Positions 8,356 through 27,552 of a stretch of DNA of 47,084 nt are shown here, in pieces. The position numbers were made by a program, and so were the translations under genes. Each line of letters opens with the position of its first letter. The first letter of the stretch is position 1. The DNA lies in NCBI RefSeq assembly GCF_024282095.1, contig NZ_JAMWZS010000022.1, positions 1 to 47,084 of the forward strand, written 5' to 3'. Source of the stretch: Nitrosomonas sp. (lineage in GTDB: Bacteria > Pseudomonadota > Gammaproteobacteria > Burkholderiales > Nitrosomonadaceae). Below the pieces are notes generated by a model. It made no database searches and was not told the DNA's origin. It saw nothing but the letters and a program-made list of their open reading frames with translations.

Positions 8356-8423
8356 AAATCCCATTGAATTGACTGTGCGTGCCTTATTGAGCATCTTTGA
8401 ACGAATATGCGGGGAAATTAACA

Positions 8424-10166
8424 ATGTATCGCTATGATGAATATGATCAGCAAATAGTGAATGAACGCGTCGAGCAGTATCGTGATCAAGTGCGTCGGCG
8501 TCTTTCCGGTGAACTGACGGAAGAAGAATTTTTGCCTTTACGGCTGCAAAATGGCTTGTATATGCAAATACATGGCTACATGCTGCGTATTGCAGTGCCT
8601 TACGGCTTCATATCTTCAAGACAGATACGCATGTTTGCCCACATTGCACGTAAATATGATCGTGGTTACGGGCATTTCACGACACGCCAGAATATCCAGT
8701 TTAATTGGCTCAAACTGGAAGATACGCCTGATATTCTGACCGATCTCGCTTCTGTCGAAATGCATGCCATCCAGACTTCCGGCAATTGTGTGCGCAATAT
8801 TACCTCGGACGAATATGCCGGGGTTGCGCAAGATGAAGTCGTTGATCCGCGCCCTTATGCTGAGATTCTGCGCCAATGGAGCACTTTTCATCCGGAATTT
8901 GCTTACTTGCCGCGCAAATTCAAAATTGCCATCAGCGGTGGAAAAGAAGACCGTGCTGCGATCTATGCGCACGATATCGGCTTGTCGGTGACTAAAAATG
9001 CGCAGGGTGAAGTGGGCTTCCGTGTGCTGGTGGGTGGAGGATTGGGGCGCACACCTGTCATCGGCAGTGAGATTTGTGAGTTTGTGCCGTGGCAGCATAT
9101 TTTGACGTATGTCGAATCCATTCTGCGGATCTATAATCAATATGGTCGCCGGGATAATAAATATAAAGCACGCATCAAGATTCTGGTAAAAGCGCTGGGA
9201 ATTGATGAATTCAAACGTCAGGTTGAAGCGGATTGGGCGGATCTCAAGGATGGTCCCGGTACTTTAACTGCCGAGGAAGTCGATCGTGTTGCCTCGTTCT
9301 TTACTGATCCGGCTTATGAAACACTGACGGATCATGATTCCGCGTTGAATGAATTCAAAGCGGATAGTCGCTCATTTTCCAACTGGATGTTGCGTAACGT
9401 CAAGCCGCACCGTGTTCCCGGTTACGCAATCGTCGTTTTGTCGTTGAAGAAGCCGGGCACTGTTCCTGGCGATGCCACGGCTGAACAGATGGAAGCAATC
9501 GCAGATCTGGCGGATCGCTACAGCTTTGGTGAATTACGCATCACGCATCAACAGAATCTGGTGTTGGCGGATGTGCGGCAGAAGGATCTGATTCGTTTGT
9601 GGCAAGAAGCGACAGCCTACGAGCTGACAGCGCCCAATATCGGGTTGTTGACCGATATCATCAGCTGTCCCGGTGCGGAATTCTGCACGTTGGCCAATGC
9701 GCGCTCCATACCGCTGGCAAAGTTGATCGCCGAGCGTTTTGAGAGTCTGGATTTTCAGCACGATATCGGTGAGATAACACTGAATATCTCGGGGTGTGTC
9801 AATGCGTGCGGGCAGCATCATATCGGCAATATCGGCATTACCGGTGTTGAAAAGAAAGATCATGATGAGTGGTATCAGGTGTCGCTTGGTGGCGCTGAGG
9901 GTAACAACAGCTCGATTGGCAAGATTATCGGTCCATCCTTTACATTTAACCAGGTGCCGGAGGTGATTGACCGCCTGCTGCAGGTTTATCTGCGTGAACG
10001 TATGGAAGCTGAGCGTTTTATTGATACGGTGCGCCGCATTGGCCATGGGCCTTTTAAAGAGTATGTGTATGCGACGGAATTTGCGGTTGAGGAAGAAGAA
10101 ATTGCCGACAAGCATGTGGTGGTGCCTGCGGAATATTCAGTGCCCTATTATTCTCCAAGGTTTTAA
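8424..10166 (+). CDS. cysI: Sulfite reductase hemoprotein
   Basis: Reduces sulfite to sulfide with six electrons; 580 residues. It carries the siroheme/[4Fe-4S] ligand cysteines in 'SCPGAEFC' and 'GCVNACGQHH', plus the siroheme-contacting 'TSGNCVRNITSDEYAG' and 'RRDNKYKARIKI'. The sequence resembles the Pseudomonas-type CysI ('YDEYDQQIV') more than the E. coli CysJ-dependent one. No cysJ flavoprotein is present, so the electron donor is probably a ferredoxin. The frame is open from a TTG at 8397, but the ATG at 8424 has GGGGA at the right distance and matches homologues. It is followed after 5 bases by the DUF934 gene. Confidence 0.93.
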   Translation: MYRYDEYDQQIVNERVEQYRDQVRRRLSGELTEEEFLPLRLQNGLYMQIHGYMLRIAVPYGFISSRQIRMFAHIARKYDRGYGHFTTRQNIQFNWLKLEDTPDILTDLASVEMHAIQTSGNCVRNITSDEYAGVAQDEVVDPRPYAEILRQWSTFHPEFAYLPRKFKIAISGGKEDRAAIYAHDIGLSVTKNAQGEVGFRVLVGGGLGRTPVIGSEICEFVPWQHILTYVESILRIYNQYGRRDNKYKARIKILVKALGIDEFKRQVEADWADLKDGPGTLTAEEVDRVASFFTDPAYETLTDHDSALNEFKADSRSFSNWMLRNVKPHRVPGYAIVVLSLKKPGTVPGDATAEQMEAIADLADRYSFGELRITHQQNLVLADVRQKDLIRLWQEATAYELTAPNIGLLTDIISCPGAEFCTLANARSIPLAKLIAERFESLDFQHDIGEITLNISGCVNACGQHHIGNIGITGVEKKDHDEWYQVSLGGAEGNNSSIGKIIGPSFTFNQVPEVIDRLLQVYLRERMEAERFIDTVRRIGHGPFKEYVYATEFAVEEEEIADKHVVVPAEYSVPYYSPRF

Positions 10167-10171
10167 GTGTG

Positions 10172-10699
10172 ATGATTATAAAAAATAAAGCAATCGTTGC
10201 GGATGACTGGGTTGTGCTGCGTTTAAGCGAGCAGGAATCAGCAGACAATGTGACGGTTCCGGCGGGCAAAGTGATTGTGCCATTGCAAGTTTGGTTGCAG
10301 CAGCGCGATGCATTACAACAACGTGATGACATAGGCGTGTGGCTCGCCAGCGCTGAACGTCCGGAGGATTTGAAAGACGATGTGCACAAACTTTCCGTGA
10401 TTGCGGTTGATTTTCCGAAATTCTCGGATGGCCGGGGTTATTCCATTGCCTATAATCTGCGCGCGCGTCTGGGTTATACCGGAGAATTGCGGGCGATCGG
10501 CGATGTCTTGCGCGATCAATTATTTTATATGCAGCGCGTCGGATTTGACGCCTTTGCGCCGCGTCCGGATCGTAACATTGAGGATGCGTTAAAAGGATTG
10601 AGTGATTTTTCCGAGGTGTATCAAACTTCTTTTAATCAGAAACTGCCATTATTTCGTCGAGTACAGCGCAAGGGAAATCCGGCTGCAGACATGACATGA
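10172..10699 (+). CDS. DUF934 protein, sulfite reduction-associated
   Basis: A 175-residue cytosolic protein with the DUF934 core 'VDFPKFSDGRGYSIAYNLR' and 'GDVLRDQLFYMQRVGFDAF'. The family is found almost only between cysI and cysH in beta- and gammaproteobacteria lacking cysJ, so a role in electron delivery to, or assembly of, sulfite reductase is a reasonable guess but unproven. The start may be the GTG at 10169 or the ATG at 10172; AAGG lies at 10157-10160. The stop overlaps the cysH start (ATGA), implying translational coupling. Confidence 0.87.
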   Translation: MIIKNKAIVADDWVVLRLSEQESADNVTVPAGKVIVPLQVWLQQRDALQQRDDIGVWLASAERPEDLKDDVHKLSVIAVDFPKFSDGRGYSIAYNLRARLGYTGELRAIGDVLRDQLFYMQRVGFDAFAPRPDRNIEDALKGLSDFSEVYQTSFNQKLPLFRRVQRKGNPAADMT

Positions 10700-11394
10700 G
10701 TGCGCTGCAACAAAAAGTTGAACAGGTCGTTGCGGTGTTGACTGAAACCGTGCGTGATCATGCACCGGTTACGTTTGCCAACAGTCTGGGGGCTGAAGAT
10801 ATGGTGTTGACAGACATCATTGACCGATATCATCTTGCGATTGATATGTTTAGCCTCGATACCGGGCGCTTGCCGCAAGAAACCTATGATTTGATGCAGA
10901 CAGTGCGGGAACGGTACAAGACGCCGCTACGCATCTATTTTCCTAATGTAAAACAGGTTGAAGCGTATGTCACCGAGCATGGCGTGAATGGCTTCTATGA
11001 AAGCATCGAATTGCGCAAGTCATGCTGCCATATCCGGAAAGTGGAGCCGTTGCGCCGCGCTTTACAGGGTAAGCGCGCGTGGGTGACGGGAATACGGCAC
11101 GAACAGGGATCTACCCGGCTGGACTTGAGAGTGTCTGCCTATGATATGGGCAATCGTATGCAAAAGGTTAATCCGCTGCTGGAATGGTCAAATGCGGAAG
11201 TCTGGGAATACCTGAAACAATATGAAGTGCCCTATAACAAGCTGCATGACAAGTTTTATCCGAGTATCGGATGTGCACCCTGCACCCGTGCGATTACACC
11301 CGGAGAGGATATCCGCTCCGGCCGTTGGTGGTGGGAAGCGCCGGAAAACAAGGAATGTGGATTGCATACTGGCAAAGTGATTCCATTAAAATAG
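10696..11394 (+). CDS. cysH: Adenylyl-sulfate (APS) reductase, iron-sulfur type CysH
   Basis: Reduces activated sulfate to sulfite with thioredoxin; 232 residues. The cluster ligands Cys110-Cys111 ('SCCHIRK') and Cys193/Cys196 ('GCAPC') are present, along with the catalytic Cys221 in 'KECGLH'. The CC...CxxC set binds a [4Fe-4S] cluster and marks APS-using enzymes. This fits the absence of an APS kinase (cysC) gene or domain here. The PP-loop nucleotide region begins at 'FANSLGAEDMVL'. It is coupled to the DUF934 gene by a 4-base overlap and precedes cysD by 86 bases. Confidence 0.93.
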   Translation: MSALQQKVEQVVAVLTETVRDHAPVTFANSLGAEDMVLTDIIDRYHLAIDMFSLDTGRLPQETYDLMQTVRERYKTPLRIYFPNVKQVEAYVTEHGVNGFYESIELRKSCCHIRKVEPLRRALQGKRAWVTGIRHEQGSTRLDLRVSAYDMGNRMQKVNPLLEWSNAEVWEYLKQYEVPYNKLHDKFYPSIGCAPCTRAITPGEDIRSGRWWWEAPENKECGLHTGKVIPLK

Positions 11395-11480
11395 GTGCAA
11401 TTGGTCGCAGTATTACGCGTAGTTTTTTGCGGGCAGCCTGTGCGCAGGGTGCTTAATTTTTGTAGGTTGAGAGAAAGAAA

Positions 11481-12386
11481 ATGAGTAACCACCCCTTTAC
11501 CCATCTGGACGCGCTGGAAAGTGAAGCGATCCATATTATGCGCGAAGTTGCGGCGGAATGTGCTAATCCTGTTCTGCTGTTCTCCGGTGGTAAGGATTCC
11601 ATTGTTTTGTTGCGTTTGGCTGAAAAGGCGTTTCGTCCCGGACGTTTTCCATTTCCATTGATGCATATCGATACGGAACACAACTTTCCCGAGGTGATCG
11701 CGTTTCGCGATCGGCGTGTCAAGGAACTGGGCGAACGACTGATTGTGCGCAGCATGGAGGATTCGATTAAAAAAGGCAGAGTGGTGCTACGCTCGGAGAA
11801 TCAGAGCCGCAATGCTTTTCAGTCGGTGACGCTATTGGATGCCATTGCGGAATTCAAATTCGACGCGTGTATCGGTGGTGCGCGCCGGGATGAGGAAAAA
11901 GCGCGTGCCAAAGAACGAATTTTTTCTTTCCGCGATGAATTCGGCCAGTGGGATCCCAAAAATCAGCGCCCGGAATTATGGGATATTTATAATACCCGCA
12001 CGCATCCTGGCGAGAATATCCGGGTGTTTCCGATCAGTAACTGGACCGAATTGGACGTTTGGGAATATATCGCACGCGAAAAACTGGAAGTGCCGCAAAT
12101 CTATTTTGCCCATACGCGTGACGTGATCCGGCGTGCAGCCGGTTTGTTACCTGTTTCGCAGTTGGTGCAACCGCAGGCGGGTGAGAAAATTGAGCACATT
12201 ACCGTGCGCTTTCGCACCGTGGGCGATATGAGTTGTACCTGTCCGGTGGAGTCCGATGCAGCCAGTATCGATGAAATCATTGCTGAGACAGCGATGACGC
12301 GCATTACTGAACGTGGCGCTACGCGCATGGATGATCAAACGTCGGAAGCGTCGATGGAATTGCGCAAGAAAGAAGGATATTTCTAG
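11481..12386 (+). CDS. cysD: Sulfate adenylyltransferase subunit 2
   Basis: The ATP-binding catalytic subunit of ATP sulfurylase, which with CysN makes APS from sulfate and ATP. It has 301 residues, the normal length. The PP-loop motif SGGKDS is at 35-40, and 'MHIDTEHNFPEVIAFRD', 'GGARRDEEKARAKER' and 'SNWTELDVWEYI' are standard CysD landmarks. A GAGAGAAAG site precedes the ATG. The gene is followed by cysN after 118 bases. Confidence 0.94.
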   Translation: MSNHPFTHLDALESEAIHIMREVAAECANPVLLFSGGKDSIVLLRLAEKAFRPGRFPFPLMHIDTEHNFPEVIAFRDRRVKELGERLIVRSMEDSIKKGRVVLRSENQSRNAFQSVTLLDAIAEFKFDACIGGARRDEEKARAKERIFSFRDEFGQWDPKNQRPELWDIYNTRTHPGENIRVFPISNWTELDVWEYIAREKLEVPQIYFAHTRDVIRRAAGLLPVSQLVQPQAGEKIEHITVRFRTVGDMSCTCPVESDAASIDEIIAETAMTRITERGATRMDDQTSEASMELRKKEGYF

Positions 12387-12504
12387 CATTGACGTATCAG
12401 TGGCGGTTTTGACTGAAAAATACCGCATTCTTGGGCATATCAATCAATTTTTAATCATTTATTTCTATATTCTGTGGTAACACGAATTTCCAGAAGGTTT
12501 CCAA

Positions 12505-13788
12505 ATGTCGATCATTGAAAAAATTTCGTTTGATCAAGCCGGGTTATTGCGCTTTATTACTGCCGGGAGTGTGGATGACGGTAAAAGCACTCTGATTGGC
12601 CGTTTATTGCATGACTCAAAGTCTATTTTTGAAGATCAACTTACGTCGATTTCCAATACCACGCGCAAGCGCGGTATGGAGGGTGTGGATCTATCACTGC
12701 TCACCGACGGATTGCAAGCCGAGCGTGAGCAAGGCATAACCATTGATGTGGCCTACCGGTATTTCGCTACGCCCAAGCGCAAATTTATTATTGCCGATAC
12801 GCCGGGGCATGAACAATATACACGCAATATGGTCACCGGCGCGTCAACGGCCAATCTGGCGATTATTCTGATTGATGCGCGCAAGGGCGTGCTGACGCAA
12901 TCGCGCCGTCATGCCTATCTGGCAAGTTTGGTGGGAATTCCGCATCTGGTGGTGGCCGTTAATAAGATGGATCTGGTGGATTACGCGCAACCAGTCTTTG
13001 AGAAGATTTGTCAGGATTTCGCTGCGTTTGCGGAGAAACTCAAGTTGCGCAATATTACCTATATTCCGATGTCGGCACTCAATGGGGATATGGTGGTTGA
13101 ACGCGGTGATCATCTGAGCTGGTATCAAGGCTCTACACTGATGGATCTATTAGAAAGCGTATCGATCGAAGACGATATCAATCGTGACGATTTCCGTTTC
13201 CCTGTGCAATGGGTGTGCCGACCACAAACTAAGGAGTTGCATGATTTTCGCGGTTATATGGGACGTATCGAATCGGGTTCAATACGTGTCGGTGACAACG
13301 TCACGTTGCTGCCATCCGGATTGACTTCGCGCATCAAAGAAATTTTGGTTTACGAGGGGGCCATTGACGAAGCTTCCGCCCCACAATCGGTCACACTGAC
13401 GATTGAAGATCACATAGACATTTCACGTGGTGATATGCTGGTGAAAGCGGGCGATGCACCGCAGGTTATTAAAGCATTTGACGCGATGTTATGCTGGCTC
13501 TCCGAGCAACCGCTGGATCCCGGCCGGAAGTATCTGATCAAACAGTCTACCCGCATGGTGAAAGCCGTCATCAGCCGGATTGATTATCGTGTCGATGTCA
13601 ATACCATGGACCATGAAACAGTGAATACTTTGAAAATGAACGATATCGCGCATATTGGACTGAAAGTGCAAGCGCCGCTGGTTTGTGACGATTATGAACG
13701 CAATCGTGCCACCGGATGTTTTATCGTCATCGATGAAAGCAGTAATAATACGGTTGCGGCCGGGATGATTGCAGCGGCTAAGGAATAG
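12505..13788 (+). CDS. cysN: Sulfate adenylyltransferase subunit 1 (GTPase)
   Basis: The regulatory GTPase of ATP sulfurylase, whose GTP hydrolysis drives APS formation. It has 427 residues. The G1 loop is GSVDDGKST (21-29), G3 is DTPGHEQY and G4 is NKMD, followed by EF-Tu-like beta-barrel domains. The protein stops after the barrels: there is no fused APS kinase (CysC) domain, consistent with direct APS reduction by the iron-sulfur CysH of the same operon. AAGG precedes the ATG. It is the last gene of the sulfate operon; about 220 bases follow before the next gene. Confidence 0.94.
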   Translation: MSIIEKISFDQAGLLRFITAGSVDDGKSTLIGRLLHDSKSIFEDQLTSISNTTRKRGMEGVDLSLLTDGLQAEREQGITIDVAYRYFATPKRKFIIADTPGHEQYTRNMVTGASTANLAIILIDARKGVLTQSRRHAYLASLVGIPHLVVAVNKMDLVDYAQPVFEKICQDFAAFAEKLKLRNITYIPMSALNGDMVVERGDHLSWYQGSTLMDLLESVSIEDDINRDDFRFPVQWVCRPQTKELHDFRGYMGRIESGSIRVGDNVTLLPSGLTSRIKEILVYEGAIDEASAPQSVTLTIEDHIDISRGDMLVKAGDAPQVIKAFDAMLCWLSEQPLDPGRKYLIKQSTRMVKAVISRIDYRVDVNTMDHETVNTLKMNDIAHIGLKVQAPLVCDDYERNRATGCFIVIDESSNNTVAAGMIAAAKE

Positions 13789-14011
13789 GCAGGCATCCAG
13801 GCGTAGCGGAATAGGTGAGTTTGATGTGATAAGTATGCATGTTGGGTCTGTTTCCGGCACCGTAGTGGCAACACAGATCGTTTTGCGCCTGCGGGGGGTG
13901 CCGGCCACATGCAACGAGTGAACTTGCGAGAAGAATCTGTTGTGATTTATTGCGTACGGGATTGCAAGTATAGTGGAAACAGTTAATCATGCAAATTTGA
14001 AAGTGAATTTG

Positions 14012-14395
14012 ATGCGCAATGATCGGGAGCTTACAGGATTTGCTATTTTGGTGGTCGAGGACAATGAGCTGAATCAGCAAGTTATCAAGGAGATACTGGA
14101 ATATTCAGGTGCCACTGTAGCCATTGCAGAACATGGAAAAGAAGCGCTGGACCTTCTGAGCAAGGAATCATTTAATTGTGTGTTAATGGATATTCAAATG
14201 CCCATCATGGATGGTCTGGAAGCTACGCAAATGATTCGAATCAATGCGCATTGGTCGGATTTGCCGATTATTGCGTTAACAGCCAATGCGGATCAACACC
14301 ATAGGGATTTGTGTCAACATGTTGGTATGAGTGATTTTTTAGCCAAACCGATTAATCCCGACTTACTGATTAATACACTTCTGAAATGGCTCTGA
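14012..14395 (+). CDS. Single-domain response regulator (receiver only)
   Basis: About 127 residues, nearly all one receiver domain: acidic pocket in 'LVVEDNELNQQ', phospho-acceptor Asp in 'CVLMDIQMPIMDGLEA', switch 'IIALTAN' and conserved lysine in 'DFLAKPINP'. These motifs are those of receivers in hybrid kinases, not of CheY, so it could be a phosphorelay intermediate or a detached hybrid-kinase receiver. There is no output domain. A GTG at 13973 in the same frame would add 13 residues; neither start has a strong ribosome site. It lies 91 bases before a receiver-EAL gene and about 5 kb before the chemosensory cluster, to whose kinases it might be linked. Confidence 0.82.
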   Translation: MRNDRELTGFAILVVEDNELNQQVIKEILEYSGATVAIAEHGKEALDLLSKESFNCVLMDIQMPIMDGLEATQMIRINAHWSDLPIIALTANADQHHRDLCQHVGMSDFLAKPINPDLLINTLLKWL

Positions 14396-14456
14396 TAGTA
14401 AAAGAATACGTGCTGTAGTGATTTATTGAATGCTCCTGGACGAATTATTAGTAGTT

Positions 14457-14474
14457 GTTAAGTAAGCGCTTAAC
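14457..14474. promoter_or_regulatory. Inverted repeat just before the receiver-EAL gene
   Basis: GTTAAG-TAAGCG-CTTAAC forms a perfect 6-base inverted repeat ending 12 bases before the ATG at 14487. There is no obvious Shine-Dalgarno sequence in the leader, so the repeat could be an operator or a leader hairpin affecting translation. Confidence 0.35.
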
Positions 14475-14486
14475 TAAATTCTTCGG

Positions 14487-15692
14487 ATGGATAAAAAGAA
14501 AAATATACGTGTGTTAGTACTTGATGATGACAAATTTATGCTTGAATTTGTCAGTCATTTGCTTAGAGAATTGGGAGTCAATGAAGTGCTGGTTGCAGAA
14601 GATGGTGCCGCTGGTTTGTTTGCACTGTCTGCTCAAATAGAAGTTGTTGATTTGTTGATCTGTGATATTGAAATGCCAGGAATGGATGGCATTGAGTTTT
14701 TGCGTCATATTGCTGATCAGAAATATAGTGGAAAAGTTGTATTATTTTCAGGTGTTGACGCGGATTTGCTCAAAGCAATAGAGCGTTTAGCCATTGTACG
14801 TGGGTTGAATGTCATTGGCACATTGACTAAGCCGGTGACCATGGGTTCTTTGACAGCGATATTGGAGAAACTGAGTTTACCGATTCAAAAAACTGCTGAC
14901 TCTTCCCAGATAAGACAAATGTTTGATGTGGAGGAGATCCGACAGGCTTTGATGGCTGATCAGATCACGCTATTTTTTCAACCCAAAATTTCCGCTTCCA
15001 GCCGTCGCGTTACCAGTGTCGAGTGTTTGGCACGGTGGCATCACGCGAGATATGGCTATATTTCTCCTGATAATTTCATTTCCATTATCGAGCAAAATGG
15101 CTTGATCAATGATTTTACACGCAATGTTCTGAAGAAATCCGTGCAGCAGTTGGATATCTGGCTACAGAACGGATTGGATTTGAAAATTTCTGTGAATGTT
15201 TCCATGGCAAACCTGGATCGCTTTAATTTGCCGGAGATTTATCAGGAAGCGGTGCAGGATTCCAATGTGCCGATTGAGCGGGTCACGTTGGAAATTACCG
15301 AGGGTAAGCTGGGGAAGGATTTTGCACAAAGTCTGGATATTCTGACGCGTATTCGGCTTAAAGGTTTTGGGTTGTCCATTGATGATTTCGGTACCGGCTA
15401 TGCGTCCATGGAAACGCTTAAATATATGCCTTTTACAGAACTCAAAATAGACCGGATTTTTGCACATAACGCTACGCAAGATCTGGCGACTCGTGTAATT
15501 CTTGAGTCGAGTATAAAATTAGGCAAAGCTTTTGGCTTGAATGTGGTGGTAGAAGGGATTGAAACCCAGGCTGATTGCGAATTGGTTGCAGAACTGGGGT
15601 GCGATGAAATACAAGGATATTTTATTGCAAAACCCATGCTGGCCGATGAATTTGCCCGGTGGCTATGTGATTATGAGAAGAATAGGGAATAA
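14487..15692 (+). CDS. Receiver-EAL response regulator, predicted c-di-GMP phosphodiesterase
   Basis: 401 residues: a receiver domain (about 8-125; Asp in 'LLICDIEMPGMDGIEF', Lys in 'GTLTKPV') and an EAL domain (about 150-395). Catalytic-type residues appear kept: Glu of the EAL motif (written VECLARW, so ECL), Asn in 'VNVSMANL', Glu in 'LEITEGKLG', the double Asp in 'SIDDFGTGYASM', Lys in 'LKIDRIF', Glu in 'VVEGIETQ' and Gln in 'EIQGYFIAKP'. It is therefore likely an active c-di-GMP phosphodiesterase controlled by phosphorylation. The nearby CheA-receiver or hybrid kinase are candidate phosphodonors. The leader lacks a clear ribosome site. Confidence 0.9.
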   Translation: MDKKKNIRVLVLDDDKFMLEFVSHLLRELGVNEVLVAEDGAAGLFALSAQIEVVDLLICDIEMPGMDGIEFLRHIADQKYSGKVVLFSGVDADLLKAIERLAIVRGLNVIGTLTKPVTMGSLTAILEKLSLPIQKTADSSQIRQMFDVEEIRQALMADQITLFFQPKISASSRRVTSVECLARWHHARYGYISPDNFISIIEQNGLINDFTRNVLKKSVQQLDIWLQNGLDLKISVNVSMANLDRFNLPEIYQEAVQDSNVPIERVTLEITEGKLGKDFAQSLDILTRIRLKGFGLSIDDFGTGYASMETLKYMPFTELKIDRIFAHNATQDLATRVILESSIKLGKAFGLNVVVEGIETQADCELVAELGCDEIQGYFIAKPMLADEFARWLCDYEKNRE

Positions 15693-15782: not shown

Positions 15783-18700
15783 ATGACAAACTCAGATGCA
15801 GCGTTAAGCACTCAGCAGGAAACAATGACAGCTTTATCGAATTTTAATTTTGGTTTTACGATTGCCGATCTTTATCAGCGCAGCGGCTTGGTCAGGCTCG
15901 ATCAGATATTTATGGATTTTCTCCGTACCGGCGATGAAGTGCTGTATAAAAGGCTGGAGCATGCACGTGCGCATCCTGATGAATTGCTACCCAAAGATGA
16001 TTCCGCGTTATTGATCGACATCGCACCTTGGCTGGAAGATTTTATTGCCCGGCTATTCAACATTGAGAATGAAGTGCAACAGTTGGCCGCAAAGCATCAT
16101 GAACTGGCACCGCTGTATTTCTGTAAGCGGCAATTTGTGCAGCGTCGGGCGAAGAGTAAGGTCAGTGATGCAGAACTGGCTGGAATCGATGGTTTGGCGC
16201 TGGAGAAAGAACTGACAGCAGAATTTGGTGAGCCCTTCTCAGAATTGGTTTTTGCCACGAAGGTGATGCAGTGGATGGAAGCGGAAGCAGACAATGAGTC
16301 GCGGCTGAACAAGGCACTGCATTATGCTGCCTGGGCGCTGAGAACGCCGGCTGGACAGCGACATACGCACCAGGGAATTTTATTCAAATCGCCTGCCAAA
16401 CTCGATTTTCAGCATCTGTTGTCGCTGGAGACGGATGAATCAAGAGGATATCCGTTACATCGGCTTGGACATCTGCGTGAACGCAACGGTTTTGCGCTGA
16501 CCGATCAAGGCACTGATCTGATGGGCGCGCTGGATGAGGCCAATTACTGCATCTGGTGTCATGAACAGGGTAAAGATTCGTGTTCAAAAGGTTTGATACA
16601 AAAATCCAAGTTGCCGGATGAGCCGCCTACCTTCAAGAAAAGTGAACTGGGTGCGTTGTTGGCAGGTTGTCCGTTGGAAGAGCGTATTTCCGAATTTCAC
16701 AAACTCAAGACGCAAGGCGTTGCAGTCGGCAGTCTGGCGATGATTACGCTGGATAATCCGATGTGCGCCGGCACCGGTCATCGCATTTGTAACGACTGCA
16801 TGAAATCCTGTATTTATCAAAAGCAGGAGCCTGTGGATATTCCTCAAGCCGAGACGCGGACGCTGAAGGATGTGCTGGCGCTGCCATGGGGATATGAGAT
16901 TTATAGCCTGCTGACGCGCTGGAATCCATTGAATCTGCGTCGACCGGTGCCGAAACCGGCATCCGGTCGCAAGGTTCTGGTGGTGGGCATGGGACCGGCC
17001 GGCTATACACTGGCGCATCATTTGATGAACGAAGGCCACACGGTGGTGGGAATTGATGGGCTGAAGATCGAACCCTTGCCGGAAGAAATTTCGGGGGTTA
17101 ATCAACAAGGCGAGCGCGTACCATTTAAAGCGATTCAACACGCCAGTACACTGGAAGAAAATCTGGATCAGCGCATGCCTTGGGGTTTTGGTGGCGTGGC
17201 AGAGTACGGGATTACGGTGCGTTGGAACAAAAACTTTTTGAAGCTGATCCGCCTGCTACTGGAACGCAGAGAAGAATTCGCTTTGTTTGGCGGCGTGCGT
17301 TTTGGCGGCACATTGACGACCGATGATGCGTTTGCCATGGGATTTGACCATGTGGCTCTGGCTGCCGGTGCCGGACGTCCTACCGTGCTGGATTTGCCGA
17401 ACGGGTTGGCGCGTGGTGTGCGTGCAGCATCTGATTTTCTGATGGCATTGCAATTAACCGGTGCTGCGCAGAGTGATTCCATTGCCAATATGCAGCTACG
17501 CTTGCCGGTGGTGGTGATTGGTGGCGGTTTGACGGCGATCGATACGGCTACCGAAGCCCTGGCTTATTATCCGGTACAGGTGGAAAAATTTTTGCAGCGC
17601 TATGAAATTCTGACGGCTGTGCAAGGAGAAGCTGCCGTTCGTGAGGCCTGGGATGCGGAAGAAAAAGACATCGCTGATGATTTTCTCAACCATGCGCGAG
17701 CCATCCGTGCAGAGCGTCAGGTTGCTGAACGGGAAGGACGTGCGCCGCGTATCATTAAACTGTTGCAATCCTGGGGCGGCGCAACGATTGCCTATCGGAA
17801 ACGCCTGGCAGATAGCCCTTCTTATACGCTGAATCATGAAGAAGTGGAAAAAGCGCTGGAAGAGGGGATCTGGTTCGCTGAGGGTATGACGCCGGTGCGG
17901 GTCAATGTGGATGCATGGGGACATACGCAATCGGTGCAATTTGCGGTGCAAAAACAGGATGAGACCGGGCAGTGGCAAAATGCCGGCGAAGTTGAATTGC
18001 CGACGCGTGCTTTGCTGGTTGCTGCAGGAACTCAGCCCAACACGGTGCTGGCGCGAGAAGATGAGAAGTTATTTAAACTCAACGGCCGTTATTTTGCGGC
18101 TTGCGATGAAGCAGGTAATCCGGTGCAGCCACCGTATGCCAATCCCAAACCTGAAACGCCGATGGTATTGCTGAGCCGCTACAAGGATGATCAGGATGGG
18201 CGTTTCATCAGTTTCTTCGGTGATTTGCACCCGTCGTATTCGGGTAACGTGGTAAAAGCGATGTCCAGCGCCAAGCAGGGTTACCCCGTTGTGAGCCGTG
18301 TGCTGGAGCGCGTCAAGCCGGTCTTGGATCAGTCAGCGCAGCAATTTTTTGCGGGACTGAATAATCAACTGCGGCCAACGGTTTACAAAGTGGAAAGACT
18401 GGCACCCAATATCATCGAAGTGGTGGTGCATGCGCCAACGGCAGCTGAGCATTTTCAACCGGGTCAGTTTTATCGGTTTCAGAATTATGCCACCCTGGCG
18501 ACCATTGCCGGAGATACTCGGTTGGCGATGGAAGGCTTGGCACTGACAGGTGCGTCGGTGGATATTGAACGTGGATTGGTTTCACTCATTGTGTTGGAAA
18601 TGGGCGGATCTTCCAATCTGTGTGCGATGCTGAAACCGGGAGAGCCGGTTGTGCTGATGGGCCCCACCGGCACGCCGACTGAGATTCCATCCGGTCAAAC

Positions 18701-19331
18701 CGTGGTGCTGGTAGGTGGCGGTTTAGGTAATGCGGTACTGTTCTCTATTGGTGCGGCTGCGCGTGCGGCCGGGTCAAAAGTGCTGTATTTTGCCGGCTAT
18801 AAAAAAATGGTGGATCGCTATAAGGTAGCCGAGATTGAAGCCGCGGCGGATATCGTTGTGTGGTGCTGTGACGAATCCCCGGGTTTTACAGCCACACGTC
18901 CGCAGGATAAAAGTTATGTGGGTAATATCGTGCAGGCCATGGTGGCTTATGCCAGTGGTGAATTGGGCGAGCAGCCAGTGGCGTTGGCGGATGCCGATCA
19001 TATTATTGCCATCGGGTCAGATCGCATGATGGCCGCAGTCGGCGTGGCGCGTCATAATCAGCTGAAGTCATATTTGAAAGCCGATCATTTCGCCATCGGC
19101 TCGATTAATTCTCCCATGCAATGCATGATGAAGGAAATTTGCGCGCAGTGCTTGCAACCGCATCAGGATCCGGAAACCGGAAAAATCACGTATGTGTTTT
19201 CGTGTTTTAATCAGGATCAACCACTGGATCAAGTGGATTTTTCCGGATTGGCAACACGCTTACGTCAGAATACGGTACAGGAGAAGCTGACGAATCAATG
19301 GATCGGACGTTGTTTGAACAGCGTGGAGTAG
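15783..19331 (+). CDS. Nfn-like single-chain flavo-iron-sulfur oxidoreductase (GltD-like + PyrK-like fusion)
   Basis: 1182 residues. Residues 1-250: a helical region I do not recognise. About 255-345: a cysteine cluster ('YCIWCHEQGKDSC', then 'MCAGTGHRICNDCMKSC') fit for two [4Fe-4S] centres. About 395-850: a GltD-type FAD/NADPH module with 'VLVVGMGPAGYTLAHHL' and a second Rossmann motif 'VVVIGGGLTAIDTA'. About 862-1182: a PyrK/ferredoxin-reductase-like module with FAD loop 'GQFYRFQNY', nucleotide loop 'VLVGGGLGNAVL', and a four-cysteine set 'CMMKEICAQC...C' for [2Fe-2S]. NfnL and NfnS of anaerobes have this GltD-like plus PyrK-like pair, so NADH/NADPH/ferredoxin electron transfer is likely; bifurcation is unproven. 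ATG 15825 (AGGA at 15817) is an alternative start. It abuts the chemosensory cluster by 27 bases. Confidence 0.85.
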   Translation: MTNSDAALSTQQETMTALSNFNFGFTIADLYQRSGLVRLDQIFMDFLRTGDEVLYKRLEHARAHPDELLPKDDSALLIDIAPWLEDFIARLFNIENEVQQLAAKHHELAPLYFCKRQFVQRRAKSKVSDAELAGIDGLALEKELTAEFGEPFSELVFATKVMQWMEAEADNESRLNKALHYAAWALRTPAGQRHTHQGILFKSPAKLDFQHLLSLETDESRGYPLHRLGHLRERNGFALTDQGTDLMGALDEANYCIWCHEQGKDSCSKGLIQKSKLPDEPPTFKKSELGALLAGCPLEERISEFHKLKTQGVAVGSLAMITLDNPMCAGTGHRICNDCMKSCIYQKQEPVDIPQAETRTLKDVLALPWGYEIYSLLTRWNPLNLRRPVPKPASGRKVLVVGMGPAGYTLAHHLMNEGHTVVGIDGLKIEPLPEEISGVNQQGERVPFKAIQHASTLEENLDQRMPWGFGGVAEYGITVRWNKNFLKLIRLLLERREEFALFGGVRFGGTLTTDDAFAMGFDHVALAAGAGRPTVLDLPNGLARGVRAASDFLMALQLTGAAQSDSIANMQLRLPVVVIGGGLTAIDTATEALAYYPVQVEKFLQRYEILTAVQGEAAVREAWDAEEKDIADDFLNHARAIRAERQVAEREGRAPRIIKLLQSWGGATIAYRKRLADSPSYTLNHEEVEKALEEGIWFAEGMTPVRVNVDAWGHTQSVQFAVQKQDETGQWQNAGEVELPTRALLVAAGTQPNTVLAREDEKLFKLNGRYFAACDEAGNPVQPPYANPKPETPMVLLSRYKDDQDGRFISFFGDLHPSYSGNVVKAMSSAKQGYPVVSRVLERVKPVLDQSAQQFFAGLNNQLRPTVYKVERLAPNIIEVVVHAPTAAEHFQPGQFYRFQNYATLATIAGDTRLAMEGLALTGASVDIERGLVSLIVLEMGGSSNLCAMLKPGEPVVLMGPTGTPTEIPSGQTVVLVGGGLGNAVLFSIGAAARAAGSKVLYFAGYKKMVDRYKVAEIEAAADIVVWCCDESPGFTATRPQDKSYVGNIVQAMVAYASGELGEQPVALADADHIIAIGSDRMMAAVGVARHNQLKSYLKADHFAIGSINSPMQCMMKEICAQCLQPHQDPETGKITYVFSCFNQDQPLDQVDFSGLATRLRQNTVQEKLTNQWIGRCLNSVE

Positions 19332-19358
19332 AGAATCCGAGCCCGGTGAGAAGCGGTG

Positions 19359-19895
19359 ATGGATAATCAGTCGATAGAGCACGCTGCAGCGGCGGTATCT
19401 GAAAGTGACCGGGATATTCCGGATGCAATACTTCAAGTCATTCGTATACGGGCACAGGATACGCACTATGCGATCGCACTTAGGTATGTTGAGTGTGTTT
19501 TACCCTTGATGGAGTTACAACCAGTACCCGGTGGTGCAAATTATCTGGCTGGTTTGATGAATTATCATGGCAAGAGCCTTGCGGTTGTTGATCTGGGCAT
19601 GTGGCTCGGGTTAAAGTCTCCCGCAATGTATCACCTGAATACGCCGCTGGTCGTATGTGGCGACAGATGTGCCCAAATAGCCCTGGTTGTGGATGAAGTG
19701 ATGCAGATTGAAAGGGTGCAACCCAGTGCCATCCATATGCAAGGATTATTCAAGGAAGGTGGCGCACCGTTTGAAGCTTCCTTGAGCTTGAATGCAGGAA
19801 TAGCTTTGTTGCTGGATATGCCGCGCATTTTAAATATCAATTTCACACGAACGGATTCTGTGTCCTCGCAAGTAGCGCATGCGTTCGGAAGCTGA
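19359..19895 (+). CDS. CheW-domain coupling protein
   Basis: 178 residues, one CheW domain (about 28-165): 'YAIALRYVECVLPLMELQ', 'GLMNYHGKSLAVVDLGMWLG', 'ALVVDEVMQIE'. CheW links chemoreceptors to the CheA kinase. The ATG at 19359 follows GAGAAG. It overlaps the cheR gene by 17 bases. It occupies the WspB-like place in the cluster; a second, longer CheW gene lies three genes on. Confidence 0.87.
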   Translation: MDNQSIEHAAAAVSESDRDIPDAILQVIRIRAQDTHYAIALRYVECVLPLMELQPVPGGANYLAGLMNYHGKSLAVVDLGMWLGLKSPAMYHLNTPLVVCGDRCAQIALVVDEVMQIERVQPSAIHMQGLFKEGGAPFEASLSLNAGIALLLDMPRILNINFTRTDSVSSQVAHAFGS

Positions 19896-21396
19896 GTTTA
19901 CTGCGCATCATCCAGTGAGTTTTCTCTCGGCGAGTGAAGAATCCTTATATCATCTGATTATCCACCGAACTGGCATTGTGTTGCGGGATTATCAAATGCC
20001 GGTGCTGCGTAGTGCGCTTGCAGAAGCTTGCACTTACTTTGGTTATAAAGATACCAAAGTGTTGTTGCAGCAACTGAGACGAAATAACAATCCATCGCTG
20101 GAACTTGAGTTCTTACTGATCAGAATAACGATTGGGGAAAGTTATTTTTTTCGTCATACCGAACAAATGTCGCTGCTCCGTGATGAATTGCTGCCTAAGT
20201 TGATCGCCCGCAAACGACTGCATGAGGATTATTCGTTACGCGTGTGGAGCGCGGGCTGTGCAAGTGGTCAGGAAATTTACAGTGTGGTTATCATGCTGCA
20301 TGAGATGCTGCCGGATATCCAGCGCTGGAAGTTACAATTCCTGGCGACCGATATTAATCGGGAAGTGCTGACGGATGCCGTGCAGGGGCGCTACAAGTTG
20401 TGGTCGTTGCGCGCAACACCTGAATCCATCATGCAAAAGTATTTTGCGAAAGATTCTGGGGATTATCAGTTGCGCAGTGATATTTGCCAGCAGGTAAAGT
20501 TCGCTTATCTGAATTTGGCGGAAGATATTTTTCCTGCGATGCATACAGACACCCATGCAACCGATATCATTTTGTGTCGCAATGTTTTTATTTACCTGGA
20601 ACCGAACATGATACGGCGTATCATGAGTCGGTTTGCACAATGTCTGGTGCCGGGTGGCTTGTTATTTTTAGGCCCCGCTGATTTTACGGATGTGCCGGAT
20701 GATCTTGAGTATATCCAACATGACGCGACCTCCCATTTCCGGCGTAAATCAGACGCTCAGCCTGAGTTACCAGCATTAGCAGAGAATAATGCCGATACGA
20801 TCGTTTCACCGGTGATCATCAGGGAACTGAGCAACGTAGAAAAAATACCACCGAAATCAGTGTGTAAGAGCAAGAAGAGTTTTGGGGATATTGCCCTCAT
20901 TCAGGATCTTTTGCGCACTGAGCGTTGGTATGATGCGCTGCTAGTCATTGATGAGATGATTAAGCTGCATGGAAAATCTGCTGAATTATTGCAGGCTAAA
21001 TCCAAGGCGCTGGCCAACCTGGGGCACGTGTCCGAAGCATTGCAAACCTGTGAGGGAAGTCTTACACTCAATCCGACTGAGAAACTTACTTATTTGTTGC
21101 AGGGCACGATTCTTATCGAGAGCGGGCAATTTTTCGATGCTGAAAGTGCTTTCCGTAAGGCGATTTTTTTGGACCATGCATTCTCTGAGGCACACTATCA
21201 GTTAGGATTGTTGCTGATACATCAGGGGAATCGGAAGGCGGGCTTAAAATGTTTGGCGCATGCACTGACGCATGCAAAGCGCGCATCCCCGCAACGTGAA
21301 GTGCACAATGCACCAGGGATGACTTATGCACGCTTTGTTGAAATTATTCAGGATGAGATGAGTATTTATGCCAATACGATATCTAATGGGCGGTAA
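19879..21396 (+). CDS. CheR-type receptor methyltransferase with TPR repeats
   Basis: 505 residues. CheR N-terminal helical part (about 15-85), then the SAM-binding domain with 'RVWSAGCASGQEIYSVVIML', 'FLATDINREVLTDA' and 'DIILCRNVFIYL', all hallmarks of CheR. The C-terminal part (about 335-470) holds TPR-like helices ('ALANLGHVSEALQTCEGSLT', 'HYQLGLLLIHQGNRKAGL'), as in WspC and FrzF, where they guide the methyltransferase to its receptor. It methylates glutamates on a chemoreceptor, most simply the soluble receptor encoded downstream. It overlaps the preceding CheW gene by 17 bases. Confidence 0.9.
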   Translation: MRSEAEFTAHHPVSFLSASEESLYHLIIHRTGIVLRDYQMPVLRSALAEACTYFGYKDTKVLLQQLRRNNNPSLELEFLLIRITIGESYFFRHTEQMSLLRDELLPKLIARKRLHEDYSLRVWSAGCASGQEIYSVVIMLHEMLPDIQRWKLQFLATDINREVLTDAVQGRYKLWSLRATPESIMQKYFAKDSGDYQLRSDICQQVKFAYLNLAEDIFPAMHTDTHATDIILCRNVFIYLEPNMIRRIMSRFAQCLVPGGLLFLGPADFTDVPDDLEYIQHDATSHFRRKSDAQPELPALAENNADTIVSPVIIRELSNVEKIPPKSVCKSKKSFGDIALIQDLLRTERWYDALLVIDEMIKLHGKSAELLQAKSKALANLGHVSEALQTCEGSLTLNPTEKLTYLLQGTILIESGQFFDAESAFRKAIFLDHAFSEAHYQLGLLLIHQGNRKAGLKCLAHALTHAKRASPQREVHNAPGMTYARFVEIIQDEMSIYANTISNGR

Positions 21397-21431
21397 CTGT
21401 GTAGGCAAGCAATTCAGTGAAGTGGCCTGAT

Positions 21432-22160
21432 ATGCCGGTAACGCACCAAGAATCAGGCGTCGAATCCAAGATCATTGGTGTCGTGCAGTTAAAAGGAGGT
21501 GCCGGGCGTTCGACTGTGGCGACCAATCTTGCGGCGGCATTATCACAGCGATCGGCGGTTGCATTGATTGATTGCGATTTGCCCCAGGGTACCAGTGCTG
21601 CGTGGGGATTGATTAGAGAACAGAATGATCGGCTGGGTAATCTGTTGGTCACTACTGCATTAGATCACCACGAACTGGTTGCTAAAGCCAGAGAGCTCAG
21701 TCAAACGCAAGCGTTTATTATCGTTGACGGACCACCGCGCGTCGCGGAGATAACCCGGGCCATTCTGGTTATGAGCGATCTCTGTTTATTGCCGCTTGGA
21801 GCGAGCGCTGCGGAAATCTGGGCACTGTCTGATTTACATACGACAATTGACGAAGCACGGCGGAATCATCATCGAGTGGGTGCGCATATCCTCTGGAATC
21901 GTTATCGCAAGCAAACCCGTTCGGCTAAGGAGCTCAGTGATGCCGTACAAGACGAACTGGCGTTACCGCAACTGCGTTCTCATCTGAGTTTTCGCGTGGC
22001 TTATAGCGATGTGCTGGCAAGAGGTTTGTGGGTGGGTGAATGGCATGATCGGGCAGCCAGGGATGAAATCAATGCATTAGCTGCGGAAGTGGTGGAATTA
22101 TTAGGTGTGCGATCACTTACCGATCTGCAAAAGACTACATCGAGCAAATGGGATGATTAG
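21432..22160 (+). CDS. ParA/MinD-type ATPase of the chemosensory cluster
   Basis: About 242 residues. The deviant Walker A is KGGAGRST: the ParA-signature lysine (21) is present, but the P-loop lysine is arginine (26, codon CGT). Other motifs are present: 'VALIDCDLPQGTSAAWG' (A') and 'FIIVDGPPR' (Walker B region). ParA-like proteins in chemotaxis operons (ParC, PpfA) position cytoplasmic or polar receptor clusters, and the receptor of this operon is indeed soluble. The frame also starts at GTG 21417, five codons earlier. It is followed by the long CheW gene after two bases. Confidence 0.85.
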   Translation: MPVTHQESGVESKIIGVVQLKGGAGRSTVATNLAAALSQRSAVALIDCDLPQGTSAAWGLIREQNDRLGNLLVTTALDHHELVAKARELSQTQAFIIVDGPPRVAEITRAILVMSDLCLLPLGASAAEIWALSDLHTTIDEARRNHHRVGAHILWNRYRKQTRSAKELSDAVQDELALPQLRSHLSFRVAYSDVLARGLWVGEWHDRAARDEINALAAEVVELLGVRSLTDLQKTTSSKWDD

Positions 22161-22162
22161 TA

Positions 22163-22924
22163 ATGGCGGCTAAGAAACCGGAACAGGGCAAACGGGCGAA
22201 TACTAAGCATATCGCTGCCAGCATCAGCAAACCGGTTTTGCCAACATCAAGCAAATTAGACCGGGCGCTTGATTTTGCAGAAACGCAGTTGCCGCTGCAA
22301 ACGCCTGCCGGTGAGCAGATGACAACAGTGTTGTCAGTACCTCCACAACAACCGGCTATCGGTACGATGATCACTGATCATGTTCAGTCTAAAATCAGCG
22401 CATGGTCATTGATGCCCCAATCCGATGAAGCGCAGCAGATCATGCGCGCACGTGCGAAAATTTTTTCGCGGCAGGCGCAACAGCAGACACGCGAAGTCAG
22501 TGAACAATATATACGTTTCAGGTTGGGTAAAGCGGCTTTGTATGGCGTGCCTTACGCGAGTATGAAAGAGATTCTGCCGGCTACCAAAGTGTCTCGCGTA
22601 CCTTGTACGCCTTTGTTTATTGCCGGTATCGTCAATTATCGCGGGGAATTACTCACGGTTCTTGATTTAAGGGAAATTTTTCATATTCAACATGATGAGC
22701 AGCAAGAGAAATGCTGGATTATTGTCGTGGGGGAGGGCAAGTTGAAAGTTGGATTGATAGCGGATGGAATTGATGATAACGATGAATTTGCACCGGCTTA
22801 TTTGGCACCGTCACTGGATGATAATGAATTAATACGCGGTATTCATCAAGGCAAAGTGGTGATACTGAATGTCGGTGCAATCTTTACCAATCCGGCATTG
22901 AGTATTGACGAAGCAATGAATTAA
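22163..22924 (+). CDS. CheW-domain protein with N-terminal extension
   Basis: 253 residues. The first 105 or so form a basic, Pro/Gln/Ser-rich, probably disordered extension; the CheW domain follows ('QYIRFRLGKAALYGVPYASM', 'GIVNYRGELLTVLDLREIF', 'VGLIADGIDDN'). The extension may bind a partner such as the adjacent ParA-like ATPase, as the extended CheW-like partner of ParP does in other systems; that is inference. The ATG lies two bases after the ParA stop, so the two are probably coupled. It sits in the WspD-like position. Confidence 0.88.
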   Translation: MAAKKPEQGKRANTKHIAASISKPVLPTSSKLDRALDFAETQLPLQTPAGEQMTTVLSVPPQQPAIGTMITDHVQSKISAWSLMPQSDEAQQIMRARAKIFSRQAQQQTREVSEQYIRFRLGKAALYGVPYASMKEILPATKVSRVPCTPLFIAGIVNYRGELLTVLDLREIFHIQHDEQQEKCWIIVVGEGKLKVGLIADGIDDNDEFAPAYLAPSLDDNELIRGIHQGKVVILNVGAIFTNPALSIDEAMN

Positions 22925-22969
22925 ACCGTTATTTCTGGTTTGGTATGTAATGTTTTGAGGGATTCGGGA

Positions 22970-25111
22970 ATGAAACATAGGACTGATACAAAAGCAACAG
23001 ACGAAGCACTTGCTGATTATCAAAGTCAGGTTGAAGCGCTGAATAGATTGCACTGCATTATCGAATTAAATCTCGACGGTACGATCATCACGGCTAATTC
23101 CAATTTTCTGGAATTGCTGGGCTATGCGCTGAAAGAGATCGCAGGCAAGCATCATCATGTTTTTCTCGATTCAATTTATGCTGACAGTACCGAATATCAG
23201 GATATCTGGAAAGCTGCACAGCGGGCGGATGGTGCCGCGGGAGATTGCAAGTGGATGAGTAAAAAAGGCAGCGAAGTCTGGCTGCAAGTTTCTTATAACT
23301 TAATTCACGATAAAAATGCCAAACCGCTCAGGATCATGCTGTTAGGCAGAGATATTACGGACAGCAAAATAAAATCCCTGGCGAAAGAGGCTGAGCACGA
23401 GGTACTTACTAATATTGTGAACATGACCAGCATTATTTCCTACGCGGATCTGAGAGGACACATTACCGACATCAATGAGAAGTTTGTGCAGGTTTCCAAA
23501 TACAGCCGGGAAGAATTGATTGGCAGTCCGCACAATATCACCCGTCATCCGGACATGCCGAAAGCTACTTTCAAGGAAGTGTGGAACACGATTGGTCATG
23601 GAAAAATTTTTCGCGGCATGATTAAAAATCGGGCAAAGGACGGAACTCCTTATTATGTCGATGCAGTGATTGCCCCTATTCTTGGGAGTAATGGTAAACC
23701 CAAGCGGTACATGGGCGTCCGTTATGATATTACTGAACAGGAGATTGAACGCCAGAATATGAAAGGCATACTGGCTGCTATTGATGCTTCTTATAACTAT
23801 ATTGAATTTGATCCGAATGGCATCATCCTGACGATTAATGAAAATTTTCTGCAGCTACTGGGGTATCAAAGAGAGGAAGTGATTGGTAAGCATCAACGCA
23901 TATTTGAGGATCCGAGTTATGCAAAAACTTCTGACTATGGCCAGTTCTGGACGGATCTGGGAAATGGTCAGGATAAAAATGACGTATTTAAGAGAATTAC
24001 AAAATCAGGTGATGAAATCTGGATACAGGCAATCTATTCGCCGGTCAAGAATGAAATGGGGCGAGTGGTTAAAGTGGTCAAGATTTCAACAGATATTACC
24101 CAACAGGTGAAAGACAACATCGAATATAAAAATCGCGTCAAAAGGTACAGTGAGTTTATCAGCAAAGTGGCCAAGGGTGATTTGCGTCAACGCATTGATG
24201 CAGACGGTAATAATGAACTTAGTGTGATTGGCGGTAATTTAAATGCAATGGTTGAAAGCCTGACGAATATTACCCATCAAATGGGCGAGGCGAACAGTAC
24301 TTTGCTAATCGCTTTAGAGCAAATACAGTCTACCGTCAATGCGCAAGCAGCTGGTGCTTCTCAGCAAGCTGCTGCAGTTAGTGAGATTACAGTGACGCTG
24401 GAAGAGGTGCGTTCAACTTCTGCACAAAATCTGGTCAAGACAAAACAGTTGGGTGAAGTCGCGGAGCGCGTGCGGCGAGAAGGTGTACAAGGGCAGCAGA
24501 TATTGGAACAGGCGGTAGCCGGCATGGAAGTGATTCGTGAGCGCGTGGAAAATATTGCCCATACTATTTTGGCATTATCGGAACAGACACAGCAGATTGG
24601 TGAAATAACCAATGTGGTATCCAATATTGCCCAGCAATCCAAGATGCTGGCACTGAATGCATCCATTGAAGCGGCTAAGGCCGGTGAAGCAGGCAAGGGA
24701 TTTGCCGTGGTTGCTGCAGAAGTGAAAGAACTGGCCATACAATCGCAGCAATCGACGGCACAGGTGCAAAAAATACTGCAAGATATCCGGCGTGCGACGG
24801 ATCGTGCCGTGATGGCGACAGAAGAAGGTAACAAGCGGGTCGATGCCGGTGTCGTACTGGTTGAAAAAAGTGGTGAAATGATGAAGCAGTTGAGTGAAGT
24901 GATTGATGAAACAGTGCGTGCCAGTAAACAGATTGTTGCGGCGGTACAGCAAGAGGTGATCGGTATTGATCAGGTTTCCACATCCATGAATGAAATCAAC
25001 AAGGTGACCTCGCAGTTTGTATCCAGCACGCAACAGACCAAGGAAGCAGCAACCAATATGGGCAAGGTGGCCGGAAGATTGAGAGAATGTGTCAGTATTT
25101 ACAAAACATAG
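22970..25111 (+). CDS. Soluble chemoreceptor (MCP) with three PAS domains, one Aer-like
   Basis: 713 residues, no transmembrane segment. PAS1 about 25-135, PAS2 about 150-255, PAS3 about 265-375, then a HAMP-like linker ('RYSEFISKVAKGDLRQRI') and the MCP signalling coiled coil with its hairpin tip 'IAQQSKMLALNASIEAAKAG'. PAS2 reads 'GSPHNITRHPDMPKATFKEV', nearly the FAD-binding PAS of the energy sensor Aer ('PHNMVRHPDMPKAAF'), with the RHPD residues and an upstream Asn kept. FAD-based redox sensing is therefore likely. The frame extends to a TTG at 22940, but the ATG at 22970 has GAGG upstream. The receptor acts in the cytoplasm. Confidence 0.92.
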   Translation: MKHRTDTKATDEALADYQSQVEALNRLHCIIELNLDGTIITANSNFLELLGYALKEIAGKHHHVFLDSIYADSTEYQDIWKAAQRADGAAGDCKWMSKKGSEVWLQVSYNLIHDKNAKPLRIMLLGRDITDSKIKSLAKEAEHEVLTNIVNMTSIISYADLRGHITDINEKFVQVSKYSREELIGSPHNITRHPDMPKATFKEVWNTIGHGKIFRGMIKNRAKDGTPYYVDAVIAPILGSNGKPKRYMGVRYDITEQEIERQNMKGILAAIDASYNYIEFDPNGIILTINENFLQLLGYQREEVIGKHQRIFEDPSYAKTSDYGQFWTDLGNGQDKNDVFKRITKSGDEIWIQAIYSPVKNEMGRVVKVVKISTDITQQVKDNIEYKNRVKRYSEFISKVAKGDLRQRIDADGNNELSVIGGNLNAMVESLTNITHQMGEANSTLLIALEQIQSTVNAQAAGASQQAAAVSEITVTLEEVRSTSAQNLVKTKQLGEVAERVRREGVQGQQILEQAVAGMEVIRERVENIAHTILALSEQTQQIGEITNVVSNIAQQSKMLALNASIEAAKAGEAGKGFAVVAAEVKELAIQSQQSTAQVQKILQDIRRATDRAVMATEEGNKRVDAGVVLVEKSGEMMKQLSEVIDETVRASKQIVAAVQQEVIGIDQVSTSMNEINKVTSQFVSSTQQTKEAATNMGKVAGRLRECVSIYKT

Positions 25112-25194
25112 CCTGCTAGTGGATGTATCACGAACTCCCGAGGCAAGCGCAAGCGCTGAAAATTTTCCGGAAATGACTCTGCATTGGGAGATTC

Positions 25195-27525: not shown

Positions 27526-27552
27526 ATGGCAAAATAATGATTGGGAAACTGG

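Follow-up and report, generated by a model that had tools for sequence, protein, structure and literature searches.

A fused Nfn-like flavoprotein of Nitrosomonas as a candidate NADPH-ferredoxin oxidoreductase

Results

The stretch of DNA analyzed here, referred to as the window, comprises 47,084 nucleotides of the genome of a Nitrosomonas sp., apparently an ammonia oxidizer (contig NZ_JAMWZS010000022.1, assembly GCF_024282095.1), and our subject is a gene on its forward strand encoding a fused Nfn-like flavoprotein. An earlier note, made from the sequence alone, had described a single chain that joins a GltD/NfnL-like module to a C-terminal PyrK/NfnS-like module and had inferred electron exchange among the three partners of Nfn (NADH, NADPH and ferredoxin). 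The chain and both modules were confirmed at the position listed below, and the gene is present in a single copy in this genome, the completeness of which is given as 99.97%. We aligned the window protein (P0001) with homologues from 88 of 128 loci, leaving out the best matches, mostly from the same genus (L001-L030), fragments (L059, L069, L091, L127, L128), duplicates (L117, L118) and proteins shorter than 900 residues as read (L058, L090, L116). Residue counts refer to the resulting 89 sequences. The features of the gene are as follows.

15783..19331, + strand: whole gene; 1182 residues, fused NfnL-like and NfnS/PyrK-like flavoprotein, PRK06567-related
15837..16406, + strand: N-terminal helical domain (about residues 19-208), conserved
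16548..16670, + strand: first cysteine group C256, C259, C267, C296 with CPL motif, in 89/89
16788..16811, + strand: second cysteine group C336-N-D-C339-x3-C343; PQE segment of NfnL absent
16962..18317, + strand: FAD/NADPH double-Rossmann module (about residues 394-845), Pyr_redox_2
17220..17222, + strand: R480, aligned with NfnL Arg201 (Pf Arg201, flavin N5) in a hidden Markov model (HMM) alignment, in 89/89
17832..17834, + strand: N684, at the NfnL Arg333 position; Asn in 89/89
18369..19241, + strand: PyrK/NfnS-like FAD and NAD-binding module (about residues 863-1153)
19122..19205, + strand: [2Fe-2S] site C1114-x5-C1120-x2-C1123-x17-C1141; four Cys in 89/89

The protein combines the NfnB fold (FAD and NADPH Rossmann domains with an Fe-S domain) with the NfnA fold (FAD barrel, NAD domain and [2Fe-2S] extension). 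Pfam places Pyr_redox_2 at residues 397-646, together with a weak Fer4_20 match under the cut-off. The closest solved relatives by sequence are NfnS, NfnA, NfnL and GltD chains, while no solved relative was detected for the N-terminal helical domain.

All 11 cluster cysteines are invariant, among them those that the earlier note had placed on the GltD-like side. Their spacing there is atypical: the first group reads YCx2Cx7Cx28CPL, with a long insert, and not RCx2Cx4Cx3CPV as in Nfn (excerpts of PMC6405883). In the second group, GHRICNDCx3C replaces the Nfn motif GRVCPQExQCx3C, with PQE falling in a gap of three residues when the two are aligned by HMM. In our own reading, the Glu of this motif is the ligand of the proximal cluster of NfnL; D338, invariant in 89/89, would be a candidate carboxylate ligand in the fused protein. 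The C-x5-C-x2-C-x17-C spacing of the [2Fe-2S] site, already noticed as deviating slightly from the classical PyrK pattern, differs from the Nfn motif DGTGMCGxCRx10CV with its Asp ligand, and Cys occupies the Asp position in 89/89. Further invariant residues are H260, D265, E304, H333 and E357, which like D338 are candidates for the eighth ligand of the 4Fe-4S pair, and R672. The last lies, together with R674 (87/89), in a YRR-type stretch, which we take to be the likely place of the NADP-phosphate arginines of NfnL.

These residues bear on the question of whether the enzyme bifurcates electrons as NfnSL does, with the first FAD splitting NADPH electrons between ferredoxin on a low-potential arm and NAD+ on a high-potential arm. 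According to excerpts of PMC12921514, NfnL Arg201 sits at the flavin N5, Arg333 is said to be conserved in bifurcating enzymes only, and exchange of the Glu ligand for Cys in NfnSL appears to decouple the two arms. R480 occupies the Arg201 position throughout, D338 could stand in for the Glu ligand, and the architecture and module order are those of the single-chain Nfn homologues termed pattern C (excerpts of PMC6405883). Against this, three of four bifurcation-linked features (excerpts of PMC6405883 and PMC12921514) are absent, namely the Asp ligand of the [2Fe-2S] site, the CPQE loop and Arg333. The assignment of N684 to Arg333 is agreed by alignments to both Pyrococcus chains, the Thermotoga chain being gapped at that position. 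The retained Arg201 equivalent is also found in StnC, although the FAD of StnC is described as non-bifurcating (excerpts of PMC10482914). An Nfn-like electron path therefore fits the protein, whereas the known tuning for bifurcation does not, and equivalence to Nfn is not supported. In addition, one distant homologue (L115 in genome G399; 1023 residues, 41% identity) is without most of the C-terminal NAD-binding segment and yet keeps the [2Fe-2S] cysteines and all other cluster cysteines, a further point against bifurcation. We regard true bifurcation as possible but unlikely. Another homologue, L126, deviates from the glycine motif of the NAD-binding segment.

The fused gene is widespread among relatives of the window's genome. 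It was matched in 36 of 37 same-genus genomes, in one of them (G014) as a fragment only and in G022 not at all, and of 24 genomes belonging to the order's other families, 10 gave a long match. Carriers made up 75 of 250 genomes in an order-wide draw (E <= 1e-80) and 17 of 398 in a phylum-wide draw (PRK06567 model, E <= 1e-50). Among the best 80 of 585 matching stretches, on which our identity survey is based, named relatives with at least 74% identity belong mostly to Nitrosomonas, Nitrosospira and Nitrosovibrio, and those at 64-70% to Gallionella, Nitrotoga and metagenome-assembled genomes titled Betaproteobacteria or Burkholderiales; a few carry odd, unchecked titles (Alphaproteobacteria, Bordetella parapertussis, Chitinophaga pinensis). 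Judged by their names, these relatives would be aerobic chemolithotrophs, and this wide presence agrees with the aerobic setting supposed earlier. Three genomes (G041, G607, G635) each hold two full-length copies.

Presence of the gene is anti-correlated with that of Fpr, the usual ferredoxin-NADP reductase, which we searched for with a profile built from 11 sequences (match at E <= 1e-50). In the order draw, Fpr was found in 17/75 carriers compared to 122/175 non-carriers (Fisher p 6.6e-12, which ignores shared ancestry), and the direction was unchanged at thresholds from 1e-30 to 1e-100. The corresponding numbers in the phylum draw were 1/17 and 200/381 (p 9.5e-5, again ignoring shared ancestry), with 8 of the 17 carriers belonging to one family. 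Within a single family (f18), Fpr is missing from three carriers and present in at least three non-carriers. None of the 37 sampled Nitrosomonas genomes has an Fpr match, thioredoxin-reductase-type ferredoxin reductases not having been searched for. The genome of the window also has no Fpr: its sole PF00175 protein is BenC-like (351 residues), with a best Fpr-profile match of 1.5e-11.

A genomic link to ferredoxin was found as well. Using a profile made from eight sequences first located by motif, we detected FdxA in 8/102 loci (100 distinct, two being second copies of the same DNA); seven of these are upstream on the same strand, in three clades. Simple open reading frame (ORF) calls in G+C-rich loci included antisense frames. 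In L148, FdxA lies 16 bp upstream of the fused gene, and on the Acidithiobacillus caldus plasmid pTcM1 it is the preceding gene. In L083, the run consists of gntR, an AprA-like flavoprotein, a 4Fe-4S protein, a HEAT protein, FdxA, sulfonate-type ABC transporter genes and the fused gene; in its relatives, too, FdxA lies upstream, separated from the fused gene by several others, and the run includes an AprA-like flavoprotein and a sulfonate-type ABC transporter. The homologue on pTcM1 (45% identity) is the only full-length one among 72,556 plasmid records. This plasmid is typed as mobilizable, and its fused gene (L187, 7007-10468) stands directly behind fdxA and a module resembling adenosine 5'-phosphosulfate reductase. 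An RnfB-type protein is encoded behind the fused gene in L104, and proteins of the same cluster follow it in L087 and L143.

The FdxA linkage in three clades speaks against a further explanation, in which the protein, as an NADH/NADPH transhydrogenase or as a sink for NAD(P)H, works without ferredoxin and is linked to cys and pnt genes for NADPH supply only. Its NADPH-type and NAD-type modules on one chain and the pnt linkage described below would suit such a role; the invariant cysteines of both 4Fe-4S-type groups and the anti-correlation with Fpr would not, and we consider it very improbable.

The neighborhood of the fused gene in the window includes the following genes.

8397..10166, + strand: sulfite/nitrite reductase hemoprotein (cysI); closest in NCBIfam to ferredoxin-nitrite reductase and the NirA family, with every score under cut-off
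10169..13788, + strand: DUF934-like gene, cysH, cysD, cysN; cysH by NCBIfam, cysD and cysN named from sequence, resembling those of L129 and L135
30904..33808, + strand: pntAA, pntAB, pntB transhydrogenase, parted from the fused gene by chemotaxis-type genes

The gene next to cysH has no NCBIfam match, and we presume it to be DUF934-like. The usual order in Nitrosomonadaceae is cysI-(DUF934-like)-cysH-cysD-cysN-fused gene-pntAA-pntAB-pntB. We took 34 loci as Nitrosomonadaceae on the basis of record title and identity (>=73%), although L057 and L058 bear other titles. Of the 32 such loci with enough flank, 29 have CysN no more than 2.5 kb upstream; CysI lies upstream in 29 of 31, and PntAA no more than 1.5 kb downstream in 21 of 29. 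The pnt genes also directly follow the fused gene in three Nitrotoga loci, L082 and L088. A second clade carries cysD-cysNC-fused gene, with a 5-bp gap in L129 and an overlap in L135; these genes correspond to L111 and L121 in the tree, where they are sisters in a clade apart from Nitrosomonadaceae.

Several loci vary this arrangement. In the window, the cysN-fused gene-pnt set, more compact in many relatives, is broken up by a pair of response-regulator genes and a chemotaxis/hybrid-kinase cluster (13973-15692 and 19356-30686), and a similar chemotaxis insertion lies behind the fused gene in L110. A sulfite-reductase-like protein of about 700 residues is encoded upstream in L041, L046-L056 and L058, where other Nitrosomonadaceae have the 580-residue CysI. 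Nitrosomonas sp. HPC101 has an NADPH-type CysI (PRK13504; L098, 1-1410) divergent from cysH-cysD-cysN-fused gene-pnt.

The frequent proximity of pnt is a further point in favor of bifurcation, as the two enzymes together would allow ferredoxin reduction powered by the proton-motive force in an aerobe. A more far-reaching version holds that the protein is a widespread, aerobe-adapted bifurcating ferredoxin reductase with an all-Cys [2Fe-2S] site and an Asp ligand of the proximal cluster, which with the proton-driven transhydrogenase makes low-potential ferredoxin in aerobic nitrifiers and relatives, replacing Fpr, Rnf or Fix; we judge this rather unlikely.

The cys linkage raises yet another explanation, namely a dedicated reductase that docks straight onto CysI without free ferredoxin, much as GltD docks to GltB. 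Linkage to cysI, cysH, cysD and cysN in two clades would be expected from it, and the genome of the window has no cysJ match. Four Nitrosomonas genomes (G001, G021, G035, G036), on the other hand, retain the fused gene along with a CysJ over the cut-off and without the window-type CysI. FdxA neighbors at other loci and the scarcity of nearby cys genes among the loci listed from L062 onward also argue against docking, which we regard as improbable.

Discussion

For this protein, an NADPH-ferredoxin oxidoreductase is the reading that best fits the linkage to ferredoxin, the anti-correlation with Fpr and the gene runs for sulfur reduction. Architecture, invariant ligands and gene linkages are, like the anti-correlation, matters of observation, from which we infer cofactors, partners, direction and operon transcription. 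We lean towards an NADPH-ferredoxin(-NAD) oxidoreductase that constitutes a separate fused lineage of the NfnL/GltD and NfnS/PyrK architecture and substitutes for Fpr; its most likely activity is electron transfer between NADPH and ferredoxin, serving in part the reduction of sulfate to sulfide. The first FAD would be reduced by NADPH, and the electrons would then reach an FdxA-type ferredoxin through the two iron-sulfur clusters, while the second arm, with the [2Fe-2S] site, second FAD and NAD(H) site, might serve exchange with NADH. In this manner the enzyme could fill in for the absent Fpr. Among the consumers of the ferredoxin may be the assimilatory sulfite reductase of the same putative operon in Nitrosomonadaceae, and the neighboring transhydrogenase may supply the NADPH.

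A number of observations weigh against this reading. FdxA is absent near the gene in 94/102 loci, including the window and the Nitrosomonadaceae, a count that covers the loci only and involved no whole-genome search. No conserved neighbor with an evident link was found beyond Nitrosomonadaceae, Nitrotoga and the clades mentioned above. Fpr is also present in the 17 carriers of the order draw noted above, among them every sampled carrier in families f10, f16, f22 and f125 (3, 1, 2 and 3), and absent from 53 of its 175 non-carriers; carriers with both and non-carriers with neither argue against a strict replacement of Fpr. The four Nitrosomonas genomes with the fused gene and CysJ belong here too, as does a fifth (G018) with two partial CysJ matches. 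Conversely, 7 of 14 same-order genomes without the fused gene (G037, G039, G040, G043, G049, G055, G056) encode the window-type CysI while lacking CysJ, which indicates that this sulfite reductase can function without the fused gene.

The earlier note had suggested that the enzyme might supply reduced ferredoxin to the cysJ-less sulfite reductase nearby. The conserved operons and the genomic link to ferredoxin are in favor of this idea, but the role cannot be exclusive, because the four CysJ genomes keep the gene. Taken together with the CysI genomes that do without it, sulfite reduction would be at most one use of the enzyme. Overall, the earlier interpretation is partly supported.

In a survey from 2018, aerobes had almost no bifurcating enzymes other than Fix, and Nfn occurred in only one of them (PMC6085437; excerpts of PMC6405883). 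The Nfn-like fused family described here is present in 75 of the 250 genomes sampled from the order. If our reading is true, it would explain how ferredoxin is reduced in organisms such as Nitrosomonas, with no Fpr match in 37 sampled genomes.

Comparison with known systems

The nearest annotated family by far is PRK06567/NF005128, "putative bifunctional glutamate synthase subunit beta/2-polyprenylphenol hydroxylase", which is the top NCBIfam model with 809.8 bits and a best stretch at residues 21-727, and which spans the N-terminal helical domain as well. Its curated cut-off of 1072 bits was not reached by the window protein and was passed by 0/398 genomes of the phylum draw. The fused models PRK12778 and PRK12779 score only 124 and 96 bits, and TIGR01316 (NADPH-dependent glutamate synthase) scores 90. 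The name PRK06567 was not found in any paper of the searched literature, nor did that literature, on fused, aerobic or proteobacterial Nfn and on Nitrosomonas, contain a description of the function of this protein.

Each half shares the fold of GltD or of PyrK from dihydroorotate dehydrogenase B, GltD tying with NfnL and PyrK outscoring NfnA, but here both halves are fused in one chain. Neither GltB nor PyrD was recognized by eye among the ORFs of the window, where no search aimed at them was made. Identity as a small subunit of glutamate synthase was rejected, as TIGR01317 and TIGR01318 gave 45.4 and 38.4 bits against cut-offs of 447.7 and 482.95. An Fpr-type domain was rejected as well, with no PF00175 match in the protein up to E 10; a function in common with Fpr is proposed from the anti-correlation.

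Like NfnAB/NfnSL of Pyrococcus and Thermotoga, the protein has a GltD-like FAD/NADPH module with two Fe-S sites and an FAD/NAD/[2Fe-2S] module, and it retains the Arg201 position. Unlike them, it is a single chain with the NfnL part first and an additional N-terminal domain, and it has kept neither their cluster motifs and Asp ligand nor the CPQE loop and Arg333; judged by its sequence, it is not a canonical Nfn. Single-chain proteobacterial homologues with the same domain order, NfnL part N-terminal and NfnS/NfnA-like part C-terminal, are already known as pattern C (Liang 2019; excerpts of PMC6405883), which was reported from Actinobacteria, Alpha- and Gammaproteobacteria and exceeds the fused form of clostridia by about 200 residues. 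The window protein, with 1182 residues and a helical N-terminus, was compared to pattern C by domain order and published description (excerpts of PMC6405883). As a natural Nfn-like set with altered tuning residues, this family makes the residue requirements of bifurcation testable.

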